Source of the DNA: an uncultured Paracoccaceae bacterium
GTDB taxonomy: Bacteria; Pseudomonadota; Alphaproteobacteria; Rhodobacterales; Rhodobacteraceae
NCBI GenBank assembly: GCA_947489325.1
Contig: CANLDA010000004.1
Span: 62,001 to 126,000, forward strand
Length of the DNA: 64,000 nt
Direction of reading: 5' to 3'
The notes under the pieces were generated by a model. It was not told the DNA's origin and did no database searches. It saw only the letters and a program-made list of their open reading frames with translations. Shown here in pieces: positions 9,465 to 57,852 of this stretch. Made by a program: the position numbers and the translations under genes. Each line of letters begins with the position of its first letter. The first letter of the stretch is position 1.

Positions 9465-10370
9465 GTGTTGAGTGAATGGCTGATCTCGCTTGAGGGCACC
9501 GAAGCAGGACATCAGGTCGCGCTAGGATTGGCGATTATGGCGGCGTTTTTGCATGCCGTTTTTGGTGCCTTGCAAAAAGGACGGCATGATCCATGGCTAA
9601 CCCGTGGCGCGATTGATTTCAGTTATTGCATGATGGCTGCCCCCTTCGCGTTTTTTGTGGTGCCATGGCCGGAGCCACATATGTGGCCCATCTTGGTGGG
9701 CGCCTTTTTCATTCACGTGGCTTATAAAGTGATGCAGGCCTATGCCTATTCCAAGGGCGCGTTCACGGTGGTTTATCCGGTGGTACGCGGCACAGGTCCA
9801 TTGTTTGCGGTCATCGGTGCGTATTTCATTTTTTCCGAGAGCTTTACTTGGGTGCAGTGGGTTGGCGTTGGAGTGTTGCTGAGCGGAATTTTTGGCCTAG
9901 CGCTCTATAATTTTCTGTATCTTGTAAGTGAGCGGGACACGTTGATGCTGGCGCTGTTTTTGGCGTTTCTAACGGGGTTGATCGTGGCGGGATATACCAC
10001 ATATGACGCTTATGGCATTCGTGCGACGGCCAATCCGTTTACTTTTCTGGCATGGTTTTTCTTTGTTGATGGGCTGTTCATGCCTGTGATTGCCACGCTG
10101 AGATGGCGTAGCATGGCGGCGCGTCCAGTACTTGGCCCTTTGATGATCAAGGGCGTGTTTGGTGGATTGTTGGCCTTTTTTAGTTTTGGATCCATCATGG
10201 TGGCGACGCGACTGGACAAAGTGGGCGAGGCGGCGGTGTTGCGCGAAACATCCACGGTGTTCGCGGCGTTGATTGGCTGGCTGGTATTGAAAGAGACTGT
10301 GGGACCACGACGTATTTTCCTCATGGGCTTGATCGCGGCAGGAGCTGTGATAGTGGAAATGGGAGGATGA
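9465..10370 (+). CDS. EamA-family (DMT superfamily) inner membrane transporter
   Basis: The 301-residue protein has about ten hydrophobic segments in the two-fold EamA arrangement. The first half includes VVYPVVRGTGPLFAVIGAYF, which matches the conserved end of an EamA repeat; the second half includes AAVLRETSTVFAALIGWLVLKE, the equivalent position. DMT transporters export small metabolites or take up amines; the substrate here is unknown. The start is probably GTG at 9465, with GAGGGA eight bases before it; the TTG directly after is an alternative. It lies between ftsY and the septation protein gene. A REP-like arm begins six bases after its stop. Confidence 0.85.
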   Translation: MLSEWLISLEGTEAGHQVALGLAIMAAFLHAVFGALQKGRHDPWLTRGAIDFSYCMMAAPFAFFVVPWPEPHMWPILVGAFFIHVAYKVMQAYAYSKGAFTVVYPVVRGTGPLFAVIGAYFIFSESFTWVQWVGVGVLLSGIFGLALYNFLYLVSERDTLMLALFLAFLTGLIVAGYTTYDAYGIRATANPFTFLAWFFFVDGLFMPVIATLRWRSMAARPVLGPLMIKGVFGGLLAFFSFGSIMVATRLDKVGEAAVLRETSTVFAALIGWLVLKETVGPRRIFLMGLIAAGAVIVEMGG

Positions 10371-10376
10371 ACATCC

Positions 10377-10407
10377 GCTCATCGCTCGCTGACGCGCGCT
10401 TTTCGCT
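10377..10407 (+). repeat. Single 31-nt arm of the dispersed hairpin repeat family
   Basis: This 31-nt stretch begins GCTCATCGCTC and ends TTTTCGCT. It matches the left arm of the copy at 57786 at about 26 of 31 positions. It begins six bases after the EamA stop codon, as the full copies do relative to their genes, but no matching right arm follows, so it looks like a half or decayed element. Confidence 0.6.
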
Positions 10408-13394: not shown

Positions 13395-13515
13395 GTCTGT
13401 GATACCCTCTTTCTGCTCCAGGTCATCCTTTCAGACTATTGTGCCGATTTCATGAAAACCCTGTTACCGGACCGTGACGGTGTTGACCTGCGCAACACAC
13501 CATACTAAAGCAGCT

Positions 13516-13569
13516 ATGTGGCGATTTGTTACCGGATTGCGGGCCACGTTAAACATCCCGCTAAAGAGG
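13516..13569 (+). ncRNA. SAM-II riboswitch in the metZ leader
   Basis: The segment fits the SAM-II consensus closely. The P1 stem pairs GTGGC (13518–13522) with GCCAC (13543–13547), extendable by one wobble and one A-T pair. The L1 strand reads GATTTGTTACCGGATTGC. The pseudoknot strand GCGG (13539–13542) can pair with CCGC (13558–13561). The ACGTTAAACAT and CGCTAAAGAGG segments are the conserved nucleotides of the family. SAM-II binds S-adenosylmethionine and lowers expression of methionine genes in alphaproteobacteria. It lies about 80 bases before metZ, with a terminator hairpin between. Confidence 0.92.
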
Positions 13570-13583
13570 TCAGGATGTGAAGG

Positions 13584-13619
13584 AACCCCTTTCGCTTGAC
13601 CGCGTCTGGGGGTTTTTTT
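13584..13619 (+). terminator. Attenuator hairpin between the SAM-II riboswitch and metZ
   Basis: AACCCC (13584–13589) pairs with GGGGTT (13609–13614), followed by a seven-T run (13613–13619). The loop can form an inner CGC/GCG pairing. Placed after the aptamer and before the gene, it suggests control by premature transcription termination rather than by blocking the ribosome site. That coupling is an inference. Confidence 0.75.
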
Positions 13620-13649: not shown

Positions 13650-14837
13650 ATGAGCGAATGGAACACACGCACCAAGCTCGTGCATGGTGGCACCCGCCGA
13701 AGCCAATATAACGAAGTCAGTGAGGCGATTTTTCTGACACAAGGTTTTGTGTATGAGACCGCCGAACAGGCCGAGGCTCGGTTTATTGAAACCGGCGAAG
13801 ATGAATACATCTATGCGCGCTATGGCAATCCAACAGTTGCAATGTTTGAAAACCGTATCGCGTTATTGGAAGGTGCTGAAGATGCCTTTGCCACAGCGTC
13901 AGGTATGGCGGCTGTGAGCGGCGCGTTGACGTCTTTGCTGAAGGCGGGTGATCACGTTGTATCGGCCAAAGCGCTGTTTGGGTCTTGTCTGTATATTCTG
14001 GAAAATATCCTGACACGGTACGGCGTAGAGGTGACCTTTGTTGACGGCACGGATCTGGGTGCGTGGCGTGCAGCAATGCGCCCGGACACCAAGGCGGTGT
14101 TTTTTGAATCCATGTCTAACCCGACGCTTGAAGTGATCGACATCGCAGCTGTATCAGAAATTGCTCATTCCGTGGGGGCAACCGTCGTTGTAGATAACGT
14201 GTTCTCTACCCCGGTGTTTTCCAACGCGATTGAGCAGGGCGCGGATGTGGTGATCTATTCCGCAACCAAGCACATTGACGGTCAGGGCCGTGCGCTGGGC
14301 GGGATCATCCTTAGCACCAAGGATTTCATCCGCGGTACGCTGGAACCCTATATGAAGCACACTGGCGGAGCACTTAGCCCTTTTAATGCGTGGGTCATGC
14401 TCAAGGGATTGGAAACCATCACTTTGCGCGTGAATGCACAGGCCGAAAGCGCCCAAAAGATCGCCGAGGTATTCGAAGGACACCCCGCCCTTGAGCGCAC
14501 GCTATATCCTGGTCTGAAAACCCATGCGCAAAATGCATTGGTGCAGACACAACTGGGCGGCAAGGGCGGCACCGTTTTGTCGCTGGACATCAAAGGTGGC
14601 AAAGAGGCTGCGTTCAAATTCCTCAACGCGATGAATATTGCGGTGATTTCCAACAACCTTGGCGACGCTAAATCCATTGCAACCCACCCTGCGACCACCA
14701 CCCATCAACGTCTGAGCGATGATCAGAAGATCGAACTGGGGATTGCCCCGGGCTTGATCCGGTTCTCGGTTGGACTGGAGGATACGGACGACCTGATTGC
14801 CGATCTGACGCAGGCGCTTGAGGCCTCGCAAGCTTGA
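13650..14837 (+). CDS. metZ: O-succinylhomoserine sulfhydrylase MetZ
   Basis: The 395-residue protein is a Cys/Met-metabolism PLP enzyme that uses sulfide and activated homoserine to make homocysteine in the cytosol. Family features are the YARYGNPT motif, ASGMAAVSGAL, the PLP-contacting VVVDNVFSTP, the Schiff-base lysine in YSATKHIDGQGR, and the C-terminal ATHPATTTHQRL and GLIRFSVGLEDTDDLIADL. The start ATG at 13650 has AGAGGAGA just upstream. The SAM-II riboswitch in its leader supports a methionine role directly. A good terminator follows. O-acetylhomoserine specificity cannot be fully excluded, but the overall sequence is MetZ-like. Confidence 0.93.
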   Translation: MSEWNTRTKLVHGGTRRSQYNEVSEAIFLTQGFVYETAEQAEARFIETGEDEYIYARYGNPTVAMFENRIALLEGAEDAFATASGMAAVSGALTSLLKAGDHVVSAKALFGSCLYILENILTRYGVEVTFVDGTDLGAWRAAMRPDTKAVFFESMSNPTLEVIDIAAVSEIAHSVGATVVVDNVFSTPVFSNAIEQGADVVIYSATKHIDGQGRALGGIILSTKDFIRGTLEPYMKHTGGALSPFNAWVMLKGLETITLRVNAQAESAQKIAEVFEGHPALERTLYPGLKTHAQNALVQTQLGGKGGTVLSLDIKGGKEAAFKFLNAMNIAVISNNLGDAKSIATHPATTTHQRLSDDQKIELGIAPGLIRFSVGLEDTDDLIADLTQALEASQA

Positions 14838-19222: not shown

Positions 19223-20671
19223 ATGTTTGATATAAGACCCGTCGGATATGTGATCGGCCTCTTGGTGGCCATGCTGGGGGCGGCAATGCTGCTTCCTATG
19301 CTGATTGATATTGTCGAGGGCAGAGGGCATTGGCCTGCATTTCTGGAATCCGCAATTTTGACCTTTTTGATTGGCGGGATGGTGGCGCTCAGTTGTCAGA
19401 ACGTCAATAAAGATCGTTTGACCATTCAGCAGACCTTTTTACTTACCACAGGGGTCTGGCTGGCTTTGCCCATTTTTGGGGCCTTGCCCTTCTGGCTTGG
19501 CGCAACCGAGGCCCGTTATGTGGATGCGTTTTTTGAGGCCATGTCAGGGTTGACGACAACCGGATCCACCGTTCTGAGCGGGTTAGAAGACTTGCCCCGT
19601 GGTATCCTTCTTTGGCGTGGGATGTTGCAATGGATTGGAGGCATCGGGATCATTGTTGTGGCGATGGTGTTCTTGCCGGAACTGCGGGTCGGGGGGATGC
19701 AAATCTTCCGATCAGAAGGGTTTGACACCTTTGGCAAAATTCTGCCGCGTGCGACGCAAATTTCATCACGTATTTCGGTAATATACGTTGCGCTGACTTT
19801 GATGTGCACCTTTGGGTATCTCATCACTGGCATGAACCCGTTTGATGCCACTGTACATGCGATGACCACGATCGCAACAGGTGGGTTTGCCAACTATGAT
19901 GCCTCTATGGGGGCCTTTGGTGGTGCCACGGAGTATATGTCTGTTGTATTCATGATATTGGCGGCCTTGCCCTTTGTGCGCTTTGTACAGATGACCGCTG
20001 GTTCTGCCGCGCCCTTGCTGCGTGACAGCCAGATACGTGTTTTTCTAGCCACTGCCTTGGTCATTGTTGCAATTGTAACGGCTTGGCAGTTCTTGCGCCT
20101 TGGGGACATCAGTGAAATCGCCTTTCGCAAAGCTTTGTTTAACACTGTGTCGATCCTGACAGGCACCGGATATGCCAGCGCTGACTACATGCTTTGGGGC
20201 AGCTTTCCAGTGGCGTTGTTGTTTTTTGTAGGGCTGATTGGGGGCTGCGCGGGCTCTACGTCGTGTTCCGTCAAAGTCTTTCGCTATCAACTGTTGTTTG
20301 CCTCTATCAAGGTACAACTGCGCAAACTGCACACTCCGAGTGGTGTGTTCACGCCGCGCTATCAGGGACGTCGAGTTGAGGATGATGTCCTGAGTTCGGT
20401 CATGTCCTTCTTTGTATTTTTTACTGTGACACTGGGCCTTTTGTCCGTGGCGCTTGGTTTGACCGGGCTTGATTTTGTAACGTCTTTGTCAGGGGCCGCA
20501 GCTGCATTGGCGAATATCGGCCCCGGACTTGGCGAAACGATCGGCCCTGCGGGCAACTTTGCCTCACTCAATGATACTGCAAAATGGTTGCTGGCGATCG
20601 GGATGTTGATCGGTCGTCTGGAACTGCTTGTGGTTTATGCACTTTTTACCCTTCGCTTTTGGAGAGCATGA
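19223..20671 (+). CDS. trkH: TrkH-family potassium uptake protein
   Basis: The 482-residue protein has about ten to twelve membrane helices built from four M1-P-M2 repeats. Pore loops with the key glycines are seen in GLTTTGST, MTTIATGGFAN, ILTGTGYAS and NIGPGLG. TrkH forms the K+-translocating subunit of Trk systems and needs a cytosolic TrkA RCK protein, which is not in this window. The first ATG with a hydrophobic start is at 19223. Its stop overlaps the start of the next gene by one base, so the K+ transporter and a ThDP enzyme share a transcript, an odd pairing. Confidence 0.92.
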   Translation: MFDIRPVGYVIGLLVAMLGAAMLLPMLIDIVEGRGHWPAFLESAILTFLIGGMVALSCQNVNKDRLTIQQTFLLTTGVWLALPIFGALPFWLGATEARYVDAFFEAMSGLTTTGSTVLSGLEDLPRGILLWRGMLQWIGGIGIIVVAMVFLPELRVGGMQIFRSEGFDTFGKILPRATQISSRISVIYVALTLMCTFGYLITGMNPFDATVHAMTTIATGGFANYDASMGAFGGATEYMSVVFMILAALPFVRFVQMTAGSAAPLLRDSQIRVFLATALVIVAIVTAWQFLRLGDISEIAFRKALFNTVSILTGTGYASADYMLWGSFPVALLFFVGLIGGCAGSTSCSVKVFRYQLLFASIKVQLRKLHTPSGVFTPRYQGRRVEDDVLSSVMSFFVFFTVTLGLLSVALGLTGLDFVTSLSGAAAALANIGPGLGETIGPAGNFASLNDTAKWLLAIGMLIGRLELLVVYALFTLRFWRA

Positions 20672-22272
20672 TGACAAATGATACCCAACGCCCGCTTGGT
20701 GCGCAGATTTCCCATATGCTGAAAGATCGCGGTGTGGATGTGATCTTCGGTATCCCGGGTGTGCATAATGTTGAAATGTATCGCGGTATCGAAGAGGCCG
20801 GAATTACTCATGTCTTGGCGCGCCACGAACAAGGCGCCGGGTTTATGGCGGATGGGTATGCACGCGCCAGCGGCAAATTTGGGGTGGCTTACGTGATCAC
20901 TGGCCCTGGCCTTTGCAACATCATGACGCCGATGGGGCAGGCCTATAGTGACAGCGTCCCTGTTCTTGTGATGTCCTCGTGTCTTGACGAAACATCTGCG
21001 CGGCGTGGGCAATTGCATCAGATGCTGAATCAAGAGGCTGCCGCTGCGACAGTGTGTGATTGGAGTGAAGAGGCGCGTTCTGCCGAAGCTGCCTATTCGT
21101 TGGTGGACCGCGCCATTTCCGAGTTTTCAAGCCGTCGTGCCCGCCCCAAACATATTCAGGTGCCGATTGCTCTGCTGGGGAGCATGGCTGACGCTGCGCC
21201 TGTTGCTCCGGGGGCACAAGCCAGCACCGGTGCCCTGAAAGTGGATGATCTCAGCGCTTTTGCAGCCACGCTTAAGGCAGCCCGCAAGCCGCTGTTTATT
21301 TTTGGCGGGGGTCTGCAGGGTGAACATGCAGCAGAAGCCGCGCGGACGATATTGCGTCAAAGTGGTGGCGCAGGTTTCACCACTTATGCTGGTGGTGGAT
21401 TGTTGGCTGCAGATGATCCTATGAGTTTTGGGTGTTATCTGGGGCGCCCCGAAAGTGCTAGGATCATTGGTGAGGCTGACTTGGTGATTGCCATTGGTAC
21501 ACAACTTGCCGAGGTGGATTTGTGGCGCAATGAGTTGGGTCATACAGGGACATTGGTGCGGGTGGATATTGATCCAGAAGTCTTGACTGATGAACATCGC
21601 GCTGATGTGGCATTTCATGCCGATGGTGTTGCGTTCTTGAGTGAACTGTCTGGTCATCTGACAGAAGAGGCCGCGTCAAAGTGGGAGGCGGATTCTGTGG
21701 CAGCGATGCGCGCGCGTTGGCGCGCAGAAACCGACGCAGAACGTCCAGGCATTGTGCCGATTTGTGACGCGCTTCGATCTGTGATGCCAGACGATGCGAT
21801 GGTGTTTTCGGATATGACGCAGTTTGCTTATGTCGCCAAAGAGGTTTGGGACATGCCCACACCAGGTCATTGGCATCACCCGACAGGGTTCGGTACGCTG
21901 GGATATGCCCTGCCTGCCGCAATTGGAGGAGCAATGGCACGTCCAGGGCAACCCACGGTATGCGTCGCGGGGGACTATGGATTTCAGTATACTATTCAGG
22001 AGTTGGGAACTGCGGTGGAACTGGGATTGCCTATGCCCATTTTGCTGTGGGACAATGGAAAGCTCAAAGAGATTGAAGATAGTATGGTCAACAGTCAGAT
22101 CGCTCCGAATGCAGTGGTGGCAATGAATCCAGATTTCTGCAAGTTAGCTGAAGCCTATGGGGCGCATGCGACTGAACCCGCAAACCTGACGGAACTGTTA
22201 GATGCAGTTAAGACCGCTTTTGTGGCGGATAAGCCGACGTTGATCCGAATGACACCCGCCATCAGAGGTTAA
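20671..22272 (+). CDS. Thiamine-diphosphate-dependent decarboxylase, AruI-like (5-guanidino-2-oxopentanoate decarboxylase type)
   Basis: The 533-residue enzyme has the acetolactate synthase/pyruvate decarboxylase layout: an N-terminal PYR domain with catalytic Glu in LARHEQGAGFMADGYAR, a central domain (KPLFIFGGGLQ, ADLVIAIGTQL), and a C-terminal PP domain with the Mg/ThDP motif GDYGFQYTIQE ending in LWDNGKLKEI. The pattern is closest, from memory, to AruI-type 2-oxo acid decarboxylases of arginine transamination. ATG 20671 has GGAG at good spacing; ATG 20668 directly before it is possible. A 31-bp hairpin starts six bases after the stop. The substrate assignment is tentative; the family is secure. 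Confidence 0.75.
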   Translation: MTNDTQRPLGAQISHMLKDRGVDVIFGIPGVHNVEMYRGIEEAGITHVLARHEQGAGFMADGYARASGKFGVAYVITGPGLCNIMTPMGQAYSDSVPVLVMSSCLDETSARRGQLHQMLNQEAAAATVCDWSEEARSAEAAYSLVDRAISEFSSRRARPKHIQVPIALLGSMADAAPVAPGAQASTGALKVDDLSAFAATLKAARKPLFIFGGGLQGEHAAEAARTILRQSGGAGFTTYAGGGLLAADDPMSFGCYLGRPESARIIGEADLVIAIGTQLAEVDLWRNELGHTGTLVRVDIDPEVLTDEHRADVAFHADGVAFLSELSGHLTEEAASKWEADSVAAMRARWRAETDAERPGIVPICDALRSVMPDDAMVFSDMTQFAYVAKEVWDMPTPGHWHHPTGFGTLGYALPAAIGGAMARPGQPTVCVAGDYGFQYTIQELGTAVELGLPMPILLWDNGKLKEIEDSMVNSQIAPNAVVAMNPDFCKLAEAYGAHATEPANLTELLDAVKTAFVADKPTLIRMTPAIRG

Positions 22273-22278
22273 GCCAAG

Positions 22279-22354
22279 GCTCATCGGTCCCTTTTGGTCC
22301 CTCTTCGCTTTCGAAAGCGTTGCAGCGAAGAGGGACCAAAAGGGACCGATGAGC
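22279..22354. repeat. Dispersed hairpin repeat, copy with perfect 31-bp arms; probable bidirectional terminator
   Basis: The arms 22279–22309 and 22324–22354 are exact reverse complements over 31 bases, with a 14-base loop. It lies six bases after the stop of the ThDP enzyme gene and seven bases after the stop of the convergent trypsin-fold gene. A T5 run follows the right arm, so it can end plus-strand transcription. The arm sequence recurs at 27972, 57786 and 10377. Confidence 0.9.
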
Positions 22355-22361
22355 GATTTTT

Positions 22362-24131
22362 CTATTCCCAACAGCTCACAAGAACGGTTGTTCCGGCTGC
22401 CAAAATGGTTAGGTCTTCGGGCGCAATGGCAGGTGAAGGTGCTGCCACCGAGTGGCTAATTCCCAAGTCTTTCATAACAGATTGAATTGCCGAAGGGGCC
22501 ACGACAAAACTGACTTCCTTTGGCAGTTGCTGCGTCGTGTCTGATGATGCAGGCAAAAGCATGCCAACAACCGCACCTGTTGCATCAAACACGGGTCCAC
22601 CCGCATCACCGGGTTGTGCAGTCAAAGACAGACGGGAGATATGATTCTCTCCACGCAAGCCCTGCACATCTTCCAACCGCCCAAATGTCAGAGTCGGCGC
22701 GCCTAACACGCCTTCAAAGGAATATCCCGATACGGCTACTTCTGATTGAAGACGAGGAGTCCCGTCACGCAGTTGTGCCACGTTCATGGGCGCAAGCGTA
22801 TCTACCGGGCGCAGGATGGCGACGCCAAGAGCCGTGTCATTGGTAATCACAGTGGCGGGATAATCGCCTTCAAGCGTGACTGTGCCGCATTGTTGCACGA
22901 CCTCTGACGTGGTCACCACCACCCCTGCCTGATTGATAAAGAACCCAGAGCGAGAAATTTTGGGTTGGCGAATTTCCAGCCCTGCCAGCAAATTGATATT
23001 TTGCACCGTTTCACTGCTTGCGGCAGGATCAAGGGCACCACCGATGCGGCCAAAGGATTTCTGCATCTCGTTCAAAACGCGACGGCGACGTTCTTCGTCG
23101 CCTGCGGGCCAAGCAAGGGTAAAGCCTTTGATCTCTCCATCCTTCAAGGTAACTTCGGTGTGTGAGATCATGTGCCCATCTTCACCGATTAACACAAATC
23201 CATCCTTGCGGCGTTCTCTTGGGCCTTCCAGTGGGACGATTTCCAGTGTCTGCATGATTTCATACAGGCCAAACAACGTGGCTTGATCGCCTTTTTGGCT
23301 GATCAAGAGGACCTTGGCATCTACGTCCCCGGTGGCGTCATAATGCACGAAAGGGAATTCAATCTTGGATTTTGCGACCACACCTGTGGGGATCTGCACC
23401 TCGATACCCGCGTCCAGATCAGCGATGGTTTGCAAATCAAGGCCCTTTAGAACGGCGAAATAGGCGTTTTTCAAAACCTTCCGCTGGCGTGTGGTCAAAA
23501 CGCCAGTGGGATCGAACGCATTGGCCGATTGCCATTCCGCCATCGACCGGCGTGTGCCTCGACCAAAGGCCCCATCAATGGCACTGTTATAAAATCCCGC
23601 CCATTTCAGCCAAACTTGCAATTCCTTGCGTTCTTCGCGGCTAAGCGCTGCTTCAGAAGCGCGGGCCTGACGGGGGGTTTCCTCAGGCTCGCTGCTGCTG
23701 TCGTCGATCTGGGTTTCTGCCGTCTCTACAGGATCGTCAGAAGAAGTCGTTTCTGGGATCGAGGAGCTTTCAGCTACGCTGGGCAAAGTGGTCAGCAGAT
23801 TTGCGCCGACGGGCCAGAACTGCGCGCGAAATGCGGATGTGAAGGCGATAAAGCTGTCCCTTGGGATCACTCTTTCTTCACGATACACACGCAGTACAGT
23901 TTCGGCGTCTTCGGGCGTATAAGGACCCAACACAATAGCATACCAGCCACCGCCAAGGCTGAAGCCGTTCACATCCTCGACCTCGCGGGCGTATTGCTGA
24001 ATACGGTCGCGCGCGACTGTCAGGCTTGGTTGTGCTTCAATTTGCACCCAAACGATTTCATTTTCTTGTGATAGAGCGGAGGTCAGGCTGCCAATAAAAA
24101 CGAGCAGCGCCGTGAAAAGGATTCGCATCAT
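22362..24131 (-). CDS. Secreted trypsin-fold protein with peptidoglycan-binding domain; catalytic triad lost
   Basis: The 589-residue protein has a signal peptide (1–22), a region resembling a SPOR/sporulation-related repeat (GGGWYAIVLGPYTPEDAETVLR, 60–81), an acidic Ser/Glu-rich linker (115–155), a PG_binding_1-like domain (165–225), a middle region I do not recognise, and a C-terminal S1C/trypsin-like domain (375–560). In that domain the usual TNAHVV is TTSEVV (E410), the DLALL position reads GVAIL (G436), and GDSGGP reads GDAGGP (A510), so His, Asp and Ser are all replaced. It should be a non-catalytic, cell-wall-associated periplasmic protein. The start at 24131 or 24128 is chosen because it yields the signal peptide. 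Confidence 0.8.
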   Translation of the reverse strand: MMRILFTALLVFIGSLTSALSQENEIVWVQIEAQPSLTVARDRIQQYAREVEDVNGFSLGGGWYAIVLGPYTPEDAETVLRVYREERVIPRDSFIAFTSAFRAQFWPVGANLLTTLPSVAESSSIPETTSSDDPVETAETQIDDSSSEPEETPRQARASEAALSREERKELQVWLKWAGFYNSAIDGAFGRGTRRSMAEWQSANAFDPTGVLTTRQRKVLKNAYFAVLKGLDLQTIADLDAGIEVQIPTGVVAKSKIEFPFVHYDATGDVDAKVLLISQKGDQATLFGLYEIMQTLEIVPLEGPRERRKDGFVLIGEDGHMISHTEVTLKDGEIKGFTLAWPAGDEERRRRVLNEMQKSFGRIGGALDPAASSETVQNINLLAGLEIRQPKISRSGFFINQAGVVVTTSEVVQQCGTVTLEGDYPATVITNDTALGVAILRPVDTLAPMNVAQLRDGTPRLQSEVAVSGYSFEGVLGAPTLTFGRLEDVQGLRGENHISRLSLTAQPGDAGGPVFDATGAVVGMLLPASSDTTQQLPKEVSFVVAPSAIQSVMKDLGISHSVAAPSPAIAPEDLTILAAGTTVLVSCWE

Positions 24132-25215: not shown

Positions 25216-25739
25216 CCGGTAAAATACTTGTTATGATTATCGTGCTGTCTACGCTGATCTTTGGCGTTGGATTGTATTACACGCAGGTTTATGCGTTTTA
25301 TGAGGAGATCACCGCCGAGAGTTCGGGCGGTGTGACGCTTGTTGCACAGGCAGACGGCGTGACGCAGGAATTGAAACATCACGATTTTAAAGGCATCGAC
25401 AGCGTGTCATCGCCAATTCGCTATCGTGCTTGTTATTCGCTGATGCAGTCGCTGGATGTCTTGCAAGAATCTTATCAAACCTATCCCAAGGCTGTGCCGC
25501 TGACCTCGCCGAAATGGTTTGATTGTTTTGATGCAACCGAGATCGGTGAAGCTCTCGAAGCAGGCACAGCAAAGGCCTTTCTTGGAGTTAGCAACGTCAT
25601 GTATGGCATCGACCGGGTGGTCGCGGTGATGCCGGACGGCCGAGCCTTTGCTTGGCATCAAATTAACGACTGCGGCAAGCTTGCCTTTGATGGCGACCCG
25701 GTTCCTGCTCACTGTCCCCCTAAGCCAGAAGGCCAATAA
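25212..25739 (+). CDS. Membrane-anchored protein of unknown function between glyQ and glyS (probably DUF6446)
   Basis: The 175-residue protein has a single N-terminal membrane helix ([21 protein letters not shown]) and a periplasmic domain with four cysteines and conserved-looking stretches [19 protein letters not shown] and [22 protein letters not shown]. The start is GTG at 25212, forming GTGA with the glyQ stop. A protein of this type sits at this place in many Rhodobacterales genomes; I recall it as DUF6446 but cannot check. The link to glycyl-tRNA synthesis is by position only. Confidence 0.75.
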
Positions 25740-25740
25740 T

Positions 25741-27966
25741 ATGCCCGATCTGTTGATTGAACTGTTTTCCGAAGAAATTCCCGCTCGCATGCAGGTGCGC
25801 GCGGCGGATGATTTGAAAAAACGTGTAACGGACGGTCTGGTAGAGGCCGGGCTGACCTATGCCCATGCGCAATCCATGTCGACGCCACGTCGCCTGACGT
25901 TGGCCATCGAAGGCTTGCTAGCCCACAGCCCAACAGTACGCGAAGAACGCAAGGGGCCAAAGGTCGGCGCACCTGATAAAGCGATCGAAGGTTTTCTGCG
26001 GGGCGCAGGCCTGACGCGCGATCAGTTGGAAGAACGCGACACACCCAAAGGCGCGGTCTATTTTGCAGTGATTGAAAAGGCAGGACGCCCTGCGACGGAT
26101 ATCATTTCAGAAGTGCTTGAGACAACGATCCGTAATTTCCCATGGCCCAAATCCATGCGCTGGGGTGCTGGTAACTTGCGCTGGGTGCGTCCGCTGCATT
26201 CTATTCTTTGTTTGCTGAGCGATGAGGCGGGGCAAACAGTTATACCGATGGATGTCGATGGGATCACATCGACAGACACGACCGAAGGCCACCGGTTCAT
26301 GGGAACTGGGCGTTTTGCTGTCACAGGGTTTGAAGATTACGCTGCCAAGTTAAAGCGCGATCACGTGATCCTTGATCCCATCGAACGTGCCGATATGATT
26401 TGGGCAGATGCGCAGAACCTTGCGTTTGCGCAGGGTCTTGAATTGGTCGAAGATCGCGGATTGCTGGCCGAAGTCGCCGGATTGGTAGAATGGCCTGTTG
26501 CTCTGATGGGGGATATTGCCGAAGACTTTTTGAATCTGCCTCCTGAGGTGTTGCAAACCTCTATGAAAGAGCATCAGAAGTTCTTTTCAGTGAAAAACCC
26601 GAAAACGGGACGGATTGAAAAATTCATCACCGTGGCCAATCGTGAAACTGCAGACAATGGTGTGACCATTTTGGCAGGCAATCAAAAGGTTCTGTTTGCG
26701 CGTTTGTCCGATGCCAAATTCTTTTGGGAAAATGATATTCGTGTGGCCGAAACAGGTGGTCAGGCGTGGCTTGATAGCCTGAATAATGTGACGTTCCATA
26801 ATAAACTGGGCAGTCAGGGTGAACGTATTGACCGGATTGTCGCGCTGGCGCGTGATTTATCTGCGATAACTGGCTCTGATGCTGATCTTTGCGAAAAAGC
26901 CGCGCGTTGGGCCAAGTCGGATTTGAGTTCGGAAATGGTTTATGAGTTTCCCGAACTGCAGGGGTTGATGGGGCGGTATTATGCGGCACCTGCCGGGTTT
27001 CCGGCGGAGGTTGCGGATGCGGCACAAGATCATTACAGCCCACTTGGCCCATCAGATGACGTGCCAACGGCTCCGGTGTCTGTTGCGGTGGCTTTGGCGG
27101 ATAAACTGGACACGTTGACCGGTTTTTGGGCGATTGACGAAAAGCCAACAGGATCCAAGGACCCCTTTGCATTGCGTCGTGCTGCGTTGGGTGTGATCCG
27201 TTTGGTGTTGGAGAACAATTTGCGGATGCCGCTAGATCGTCAGTTTGATGCCCAGTTGCTGCGTCATGAAGCTGCGCAAAATGGAAATGATTCCGTTTCG
27301 ACTGCACTGTTGCAAGATCTGGAGAATGAAATTGCAGATCACGGCGTGTTTGGAGCGGCCATTCGTACAGTTCTGGATGCATTTGATGGGGATCTACCCG
27401 AGCATATGGAAGAGCTTAAGAACCGCTTGCCTGATACATCGCGCGATTTGCTGAGCTTTTTTCACGACCGTCTGAAAGTGTTTTTGCGGGACCAAGGGGT
27501 GCGCCACGATGTGATTGACGCCTGTATCGCGATGGATGGAAGTGATGATCTGACATTGCTTGTGAAGCGTGCGCGTGCGCTACAGGAGTTCATGTCGTCT
27601 GAGGACGGTGAAAATCTACTGCAAGGGTTCAAACGCGCCAACAACATTCTGGCGCAAGCAGAAGAGCAGGACGGCGTGGAATATTCCTTTGGGGCTGATC
27701 CTAAGTATGCTGAAAATGATGCAGAACGTGCATTGTTTGCGGTGATTGAAGCGCAGGCACCAGTCATTGAAGCGGCCGTTGAGGTCGAAGATTTCGGAGC
27801 CGCAATGGCGGGTATGGCCGAGATGCGCGCGCCAGTGGATGCGTTTTTTGAGGCAGTGCAGGTGAATACAGACAATCAAGTTGTGCGTCGCAATCGCCTG
27901 AACTTGTTGTCTGCCATTCGCAAGATTTGCGCAGGCGTGGCAGACTTCACTTTGATTGAAGGCTAA
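25741..27966 (+). CDS. glyS: Glycyl-tRNA synthetase beta subunit
   Basis: The 741-residue partner of GlyQ contributes tRNA binding. The N-terminal start PDLLIELFSEEIPARM, the segment FPKSMRW-like NFPWPKSMRWGAGNLRWVRPLHSI, the HD-like catalytic-remnant domain (LNNVTFHNKLGSQGERIDRI, AADAAQDHYSP-like ADAAQDHYSPLG), DPFALRRAALGVIR and a C-terminal anticodon-binding helical domain are all typical. It starts one base after the previous stop. It is slightly longer than the enterobacterial protein. A hairpin repeat begins five bases after its stop codon. Confidence 0.96.
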   Translation: MPDLLIELFSEEIPARMQVRAADDLKKRVTDGLVEAGLTYAHAQSMSTPRRLTLAIEGLLAHSPTVREERKGPKVGAPDKAIEGFLRGAGLTRDQLEERDTPKGAVYFAVIEKAGRPATDIISEVLETTIRNFPWPKSMRWGAGNLRWVRPLHSILCLLSDEAGQTVIPMDVDGITSTDTTEGHRFMGTGRFAVTGFEDYAAKLKRDHVILDPIERADMIWADAQNLAFAQGLELVEDRGLLAEVAGLVEWPVALMGDIAEDFLNLPPEVLQTSMKEHQKFFSVKNPKTGRIEKFITVANRETADNGVTILAGNQKVLFARLSDAKFFWENDIRVAETGGQAWLDSLNNVTFHNKLGSQGERIDRIVALARDLSAITGSDADLCEKAARWAKSDLSSEMVYEFPELQGLMGRYYAAPAGFPAEVADAAQDHYSPLGPSDDVPTAPVSVAVALADKLDTLTGFWAIDEKPTGSKDPFALRRAALGVIRLVLENNLRMPLDRQFDAQLLRHEAAQNGNDSVSTALLQDLENEIADHGVFGAAIRTVLDAFDGDLPEHMEELKNRLPDTSRDLLSFFHDRLKVFLRDQGVRHDVIDACIAMDGSDDLTLLVKRARALQEFMSSEDGENLLQGFKRANNILAQAEEQDGVEYSFGADPKYAENDAERALFAVIEAQAPVIEAAVEVEDFGAAMAGMAEMRAPVDAFFEAVQVNTDNQVVRRNRLNLLSAIRKICAGVADFTLIEG

Positions 27967-27971
27967 AGGTT

Positions 27972-28034
27972 GCTCATCCGTCCCTTAAGGTCCGTCTTCG
28001 CTGAGTGAAAAACGACCGTAAGGGAGTGATGAGC
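27972..28034. repeat. Dispersed hairpin repeat, imperfect copy after glyS
   Basis: The left arm 27972–28002 matches the left arm of the copy at 22279 at about 27 of 31 positions (GCTCATC…TCTTCGCT). The right arm (about 28011–28034, ending in TAAGGGAGTGATGAGC) pairs with it imperfectly: seven pairs, two mismatches, seven pairs at the base, then a degenerate upper stem. It begins five bases after the glyS stop and a T5 run lies a few bases beyond the right arm. Confidence 0.8.
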
Positions 28035-57785: not shown

Positions 57786-57852
57786 GCTCATCGCTCCCTT
57801 GCGGGCGCTCTTCGCTGAGCGTGCGATGATGGACCGTAAGGGACTGAAGAGC
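57786..57852. repeat. Dispersed hairpin repeat, copy after the 58-residue membrane protein gene
   Basis: The left arm (57786–57816; GCTCATCGCTC…TCTTCGCT) pairs imperfectly with the right arm ending at 57852. Read on the minus strand it begins seven bases after the stop of the small gene at 57860. It shares the arm sequence with the copies at 22279, 27972 and 10377. Confidence 0.75.

Follow-up and report, generated by a model that had tools for sequence, protein, structure and literature searches.

In this work we have followed up a set of 31-nt hairpin arms which lie close behind stop codons in the window, the term we use for the whole stretch of 64,000 nucleotides that was analysed. The arms belong to a dispersed repeat family which has at least 73 arms at 52 sites in the window's own genome. 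The structured unit of this family is the single 31-nt arm, and in the own genome most units follow closely on a stop codon, particularly at junctions of convergent genes. We read them, with a probability of roughly 0.6, as a REP-like palindromic family, that is, as portable stem-loops at the 3' ends of mRNAs or between cistrons which have spread by copying. So far the family has been found only in Rhodobacterales and in the window's own taxonomic family. REP-like repeats are widespread, and it is still unsettled whether they are parasites or parts of the machinery of gene expression; the family described here offers a clean case, with a fold fixed by covariation, a simple rule of placement and one operon junction which carries varied palindromes. 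Our work further contributes a repeat family specific to its lineage, near which no mobilising enzyme has been recognised, and annotators could now recognise these elements rather than label them terminators.

The window holds seven arms, two at three of its four sites and one at the remaining site (Table 1). All four sites were found again where the sequence-only reading had placed them, and our measurements agree with the distances of 6, 6, 5 and 7 nt which it gave to the stops of the EamA, thiamine-pyrophosphate enzyme and glyS genes and to the convergent stop at 22362. They agree as well with the perfect match of the two arms at 22279 and 22324, which form an inverted repeat of 31 bp; a T-rich stretch lies 3' of this pair. 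The offset given for the fourth site stood in part: the distance of 7 nt from 57860 is correct, but the minus-strand reading frame of 58 codons which ends there matches no family and is absent from the calls of the gene finder. The swapped ends of the second arm of this site, at 57822, correspond to a flip of A-T to T-A. The single arm at 10377..10407 lies 33 nt ahead of the next called start.

Table 1. Arms of the repeat family in the window and the genes beside them
Feature	Position	Strand	Remarks
Single arm, GC subtype	10377..10407	-	Folding (GA) strand is the minus strand; head 6 nt past the stop (10370) of the EamA-family gene
Pair arm 1, GG subtype	22279..22309	-	Head 6 nt past the stop (22272) of the thiamine-pyrophosphate enzyme gene
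Pair arm 2, same sequence as arm 1	22324..22354	+	Head lies 7 nt away from the stop (22362) of the convergent gene
Pair arm 1, CG subtype	27972..28002	-	Head 5 nt past the glyS stop (27966)
Pair arm 2, AC subtype	28004..28034	+	7 differences from its partner; pyruvate phosphate dikinase start 50 nt further on
Pair arm 1, GC subtype	57786..57816	-	Found with the covariance model
Pair arm 2, central A-T flipped to T-A	57822..57852	+	7 nt from the stop (57860) of a minus-strand 58-codon ORF
EamA-like transporter gene, upstream of the first copy	9465..10370	+	PF00892
Thiamine-pyrophosphate enzyme gene (5-guanidino-2-oxopentanoate decarboxylase subfamily), upstream of the second copy	20668..22272	+	
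Convergent gene, trypsin-like and peptidoglycan-binding domains	22362..24131	-	
glyS, glycine-tRNA ligase beta subunit, upstream of the third copy	25690..27966	+	

In the own genome, the 52 sites recovered with the covariance model comprise 31 single arms and 21 pairs, and this count is a lower bound, 150 of the 1573 first-look candidates having been scored. Searched as a plain 31-nt pattern with up to three mismatches, the repeat occurs at 49 places compared with 0 for the reversed control, and a looser pattern is found at 104 places compared with 8. The 19 copies of the AG subtype show 28 departures in all from their consensus: 22 in three columns of the loop, 5 in the outer pair and 1 in a remaining column. 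Much greater variation is seen among the 24 copies of the GC subtype, with 98 departures, 30 of them in loop columns and many in the inner stem and the outer pair. Neutral decay would scatter the changes of the AG subtype more evenly, and their clustering in the loop therefore reads as constraint: either the copies are held by selection, or only well-formed ones multiply.

The single arm folds as GC-[GA]-A-[GA]-XZ-[GA]-CC-loop-GG-[GA]-Z'X'-[GA]-T-[GA]-GC, and its folding strand, the complement of the GCTCATC reading, is AGCGAAGA-XZ-GACC-nnAA-GGGA-Z'X'-GATGAGC. The stem has 2+1+2+2 pairs, interrupted by G.A steps; in the own genome its Watson-Crick steps alternate with three 2x2 steps of G.A and A.G, and the innermost of these is often partly paired in relatives. 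The fold is established by covariation and the mismatches by their conservation. Mutual information among 56 collected arms is highest for the column pairs 8-23, 9-22 and 1-30, all of which satisfy i+j=31. In the alignment of 50 of these arms (A1, which omits six, namely inner-stem variants and one doubtful arm), 98.0% of 350 cells are paired, five of the seven pairs have changed on both sides, and none of 500 shuffles reached the observed covariation score. RNAalifold, given no structure as input, returned the same fold. The relatives, represented by 90 distinct rows with identical ones counted once, have 98.2% of 602 cells paired and six of the seven pairs changed on both sides, in an alignment (A2) which was fitted to the model and so favours the model's structure. 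The central A-T pair becomes G-C or T-A in these relatives.

Could the two arms of a pair together be the unit, as the sequence-only reading had supposed? All 21 pairs of the own genome are head-out, with the GCTCATC ends outside, and in 10 of them the gap is 0-2 nt; in relatives 26 of 31 pairs are head-out and five stand in the other order (loci L043, L099, L110, L130 and L143). Identical arms were found in only two of the 18 comparable own pairs, so the perfect hairpin at 22279 is an exception. Partners agree on average in 3.72 of 8 variable columns against 3.59 for random arms (P=0.40, 18 pairs, three of the 21 being omitted because one arm is not 31 nt long). Pairing between the two arms is not conserved, and the long hairpin of two arms is ruled out as the unit, since partners are no more alike than random arms and the single arm has a covarying fold of its own. 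A different arrangement was seen in one relative (locus L155, genome G092, contig C151), in which a direct tandem array with a spacing of 48 nt lies in a block recurring at 483 nt and has a BIME-like appearance.

The next question is which of the two strands folds, and as which nucleic acid. There are 14 wobble cells which can be read as G.U on the folding strand and 3 of the opposite kind. Counted among the 62 relative rows that are 31 nt long (28 of the 90 distinct rows are of other lengths), the outer G.A step is invariant (62/62 and 61/62), the middle one is present in 55/62 and 56/62, and the inner one is weaker (50/62 and 26/62, with a C-G pair in 22). The own genome has G.A or A.G in 42 to 50 of its 50 arms across the six columns. 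A GNRA loop closes 43 of the same 62 relative arms and 16 of the 50 own ones. The folding strand has the lower predicted RNA energy in 47 of the 50 arms of the own genome and 59 of the 62 relatives, and the mean for the opposite strand, which is the one read from the head-side gene, is no better than that of shuffled sequence. Just 35 of the 50 own and 28 of the 62 relative arms have the proposed fold as their predicted RNA minimum; with DNA parameters the folding strand is lower in 46/50 and 50/62, and the proposed fold is the minimum in none. RNA is the easier reading of the fold, with single-stranded DNA as a possible alternative.

The placement of the units was determined against gene calls from a home-made finder. 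The 52 own sites divide into 26 convergent, 18 tandem and 2 divergent ones, 5 in genes and 1 at a contig end; convergent junctions thus make up 26 of the 46 intergenic sites, compared with 26 of 195 other junctions of the same DNA, and the residual gaps at convergent sites are short (median 13 nt). The distance from head to stop (n=50) has a median of 6 nt and is at most 10 nt in 39 cases, 5-7 nt in 23 and above 200 nt in 3. The offset which the sequence-only reading had called fixed is, then, concentrated in the own genome and not constant. Its broader claim, a dispersed repeat family close behind stop codons, was borne out: the two outcomes which it had named as fatal to itself, an absence of further copies and a random placement, were looked for genome-wide and neither was found. 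The tails of single own arms are placed differently from the heads (n=20, 8 within 10 nt of a stop, median 18.5 nt; Mann-Whitney P=0.003), and 9 of 10 own tandem pairs lie closer to the upstream stop than to the next start (P=0.002 for uniform placement). In relatives the head lies within 10 nt of a stop in 22 of 35 cases and the tail in 2 of 15. Their 73 sites comprise 12 convergent, 26 tandem and 8 divergent ones and 27 that overlap a called gene or a contig end. These tallies, like those of pair order in relatives and of strand in single arms, may include a few loci twice, as the named loci L032-L053 partly overlap the unnamed loci L098-L146 (L043 and L099 look like one genome). Does such a placement mean that the element targets stop-proximal DNA, as had been suggested? 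It would follow equally from selective survival of copies beside stops or from a use made of the hairpin at that position. Among single arms between codirectional genes the folding strand is in the upstream mRNA in 12 cases and the other strand in 12; an element that acts in cis as the folded RNA of one strand would not be expected to split evenly.

Copies also occur inside genes, three of the own ones in mutL, hrpB and leuS. Single in-gene copies are read in sense on the folding strand in 15 of 17 cases, and within mutL this strand encodes a hydrophilic stretch. The own mutL copy is in frame and lies in the linker; a scan of 30 mutL loci found a copy in two of them, L059 (G000) and L172 (G018), both in frame in the linker and from two genera. 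Insertion of the units is what we infer, because no exact empty site was found; in mutL the linker lengths of the 30 loci are too variable to define an insert. At the position of the leuS copy relatives have a similar sequence, which may be an ancient insert or a coding coincidence. Chance probably accounts for a further match of 27 bits, which lies within the called gene at L079:553-1266. Two further mutL genes deserve mention for themselves: that of G001 (L170) has a GC-rich stretch which by eye looks like a decayed copy and has no match to the model, and in L176 (genome G009) mutL lies in two frames just past the linker, through either a frameshift or an assembly error.

How far does the family extend? 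An exact pattern with 22 fixed bases, run against a collection of 84,980 species, matched 22 contigs, which are titled Rhodobacterales or carry the names of genera which we take to belong to this order. Within the window's own taxonomic family the covariance model matched at least 36 of 394 genomes, own included and each a different genus; this is a lower bound, as 18 candidates were scored per genome. Fuller scoring gave 6-67 copies in ten of the matched genomes. None of 24 genomes from other families of the class was matched. With matches in only 36 of 394 genomes, there seems to be no general need for the repeat. In some GC-rich relatives the head reads GCTCGTC.

More questions are raised by the junctions which the repeat occupies in several lineages. 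The proteins flanking some own sites match those at element sites in other genera, and we studied the serC-serA junction, which was picked for having copies in several genera, in 30 genomes, 19 of them chosen as carriers; one had no SerC match, which leaves 29. The repeat family is present there in 7 of 29 genera (six by the model and G304 by eye), and a strong hairpin, scored against shuffled sequence (z<-2), lies behind the serC stop in 22 of 29, made up of all 7 gaps with the family and 15 of the 22 without it; among the non-carrier genomes the figure is 8 of 11. Control tandem gaps of 40-150 nt without the element, all of them from the own genome, contain such a hairpin in 9 of 40 cases. 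The other palindromes at this place, typed by eye, are of a GTAG type in G018, G086 and G020 and of a CCGGATC type in G009, G215 and G010 (the last weak, z -1.1), and further gaps hold yet others. The types of occupant show no clustering on a SerC+CobS tree (12 changes versus a shuffled mean of 12.0), but only 3 of the 26 inner branches are well supported, and with so weak a tree some copies may still share descent. At cobS-cobT the family is present in 3 of 27 cobS loci, in several of which cobT is not adjacent, and the other occupants include a GTAG-type pair in G414 and a RAYT gene in G010.

The serC-serA position looks favoured, and different genera have filled it with different palindromes. 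Is it possible that at some Rhodobacterales junctions selection keeps a strong stem-loop behind the upstream stop, and that unrelated repeats alternate in such hairpin slots? We offer this only tentatively and would sooner bet against it. In that case the G.A repeat would represent a hitherto undescribed class of portable RNA stem-loops, spread by an enzyme other than RAYT, and serC-serA would be the clearest slot, with the G.A-zippered repeat, the GTAG-type and CCGGATC palindromes and others as its fillers. As a separate observation, a run of C (about CCCCC, then A or T) was seen by eye between the hairpin and the serA ribosome-binding site in several genera, whatever the palindrome (loci L187-L215), and it may be part of the control of serA.

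What, then, is the nature of these units? They might be purely selfish or neutral palindromes which insert anywhere and survive where they are tolerated, that is, behind stops, at convergent junctions and in hydrophilic linkers, with no function for the host. This alternative is possible, although we hold it to be on the unlikely side. It accords with the patchy distribution and the high copy number in a few genomes, with the copies inside mutL, hrpB and leuS and the sense in which in-gene copies are read, with the even split of strands in tandem gaps and with the short residual gaps at convergent sites. It accounts less well for the sequence constraint on the AG subtype outside the loop, for the occupation of orthologous junctions in several genera, and for the other hairpins found in the corresponding position at serC-serA, in carrier and non-carrier genomes alike. 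We favour the REP-like reading, according to which the units would have been spread by copying through an enzyme, and copies next to stops would have survived since a stem-loop there is harmless or useful. The transcript would thereby gain a structured 3' end or an intercistronic stem-loop, which could keep exonucleases away from the upstream message or adjust the relative output of two genes of an operon. Roles of this kind have been proposed for REPs.

REPs are described as imperfect hairpins of 20-40 nt which form tag-out dimers, heterodimers and arrays, lie within 20 nt of 3' ends, mainly at convergent and unidirectional junctions, and are found also inside repair, helicase and tRNA-synthetase genes (PMC3733652). 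GTAG-tagged REPs, or BIMEs, accompanied by RAYT, are known from Escherichia and Pseudomonas (PMC3733652; see also PMC2817692). As a dispersed palindrome of 20-40 nt with 3'-end placement and tag-out dimers, our family is a REP in the broad sense, and it resembles GTAG REPs in its size, imperfect hairpin, outward dimers, heterodimers, arrays, placement and intragenic copies. It differs from them in having G.A steps throughout the stem, in the absence of an adjoining RAYT-like ORF and in the absence of GTAG at the foot of the hairpin, where the arm ends are AGCGAAGA and GATGAGC and the flanks were inspected too. A second group, the CGTC REPs, belongs to Alphaproteobacteria, including RPE-4 and RPE-6 of Rickettsia, was found to have no associated transposase, and consists of units with a stem of 8-9 bp, the first two pairs of which are A-T, and in most cases a CCA tail (PMC3733652). 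Our family shares with this group its home in Alphaproteobacteria, mostly tag-out dimers, intragenic copies and the lack of a transposase (here, of a RAYT-like ORF) beside the copies. Judged against that published description, the combination of a CGTC, TGTC or CCTC tag, A-T stem pairs 1-2 and a CCA tail is not found in it: the stem has the layout given above, G-C or C-G predominates at the variable pairs 9-24 and 10-23, and TCTTCGCT forms the tail. The tag alone is no clean difference, given the GCTCGTC head of some GC-rich relatives. For REPs of E. coli within about 15 nt of a stop codon, ribosome stalling and a role in translation are cited (PMC12306157); our hairpins are likewise near stops, and differ in sequence and lineage. 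Because the family shares the behaviour of REPs but not their stem layout or tail, and has no GTAG tag, we call it REP-like and set it apart from described REPs.

The sequence-only reading did not know the arms as a named repeat, and no such name was found in the literature or Rfam. Four stretches of the repeat were unmatched in the literature, and the papers found by searching for REPs or palindromes in Rhodobacterales deal with other organisms, a search which covered statements other than species lists in figures. In Rfam nothing scored above threshold for the repeat in the whole window, and no match in 22250-22380 reached the gathering threshold of its family.

Could these be REPs of the ordinary kind, which owe their mobility to a RAYT (REP-associated tyrosine transposase) that was later lost or is encoded at some other place in the genome? 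Their size, imperfect hairpin, head-out dimers and the arrays in one relative are what one would expect, and so are the placement and the copies inside genes, which match reports on REPs (PMC3733652), but we think this explanation improbable. No GTAG tag is present, and no RAYT-like ORF was found beside the arms in the loci examined, which at own sites extended up to 2.5 kb to each side, by a phmmer query and a motif scan. The phmmer query matched only its own locus and missed the Y1 loci, and it is the motif scan that carries the test; a looser motif scan also matched two unrelated proteins, each in two overlapping loci. Matches to PF01797 (Y1 transposase) were found in 5 of 56 genomes, by a model which scores a true RAYT only at E=0.011, and seven Y1 loci scanned for arms contained none (best E 0.5). 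The true RAYT, which NCBIfam NF047646 recognises at 1e-51, is the one at the cobS-cobT locus of G010 (L223), where it is flanked by GTAG-type repeats (by eye) and no arms of our family are present. Since PF01797 is insensitive to a RAYT of this type, one could be located elsewhere in carrier genomes. The only PF01797 match of the own genome (L031, contig C39:14912-15052) is a partial Y1 transposase with an internal stop, presumably of the IS200 type.

The sequence-only reading had also proposed terminators spread by copying, and intrinsic (Rho-independent) or bidirectional terminators multiplied in this way would indeed stand shortly behind stops and between convergent genes; moreover, a pair of arms can form a long hairpin, and the pair at 22279 is followed by its T-rich stretch. 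We nevertheless regard this as very improbable. Rho-independent terminators share with our family the hairpin shortly past the stop, but the U-tract is absent beside the element, T making up 26% of positions 1-8 outside the head (152/584 in 73 arms), which makes a U-tailed terminator unlikely. In addition, two arms adjoin a separate terminator-like hairpin which has a T-run (loci L002 and L015), paired arms are not matched to each other, and the strand read from the head-side gene shows, on average, no advantage in folding over shuffled sequence. Binding sites of a dimeric DNA-binding protein, or DNA uptake signals, would likewise show dyad symmetry and many dispersed copies, but are scarcely credible here, as the asymmetric columns are mostly one-strand G.A mismatches, the pairs covary inside one arm, and an uptake signal would be expected to occur more often than 73 times in 4 Mb. 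Lastly, the sole Rfam match of the window is a SAM_alpha riboswitch at 13508-13585 on the plus strand (62.7 bits), which lies away from the repeat and ahead of the called gene at 13650.
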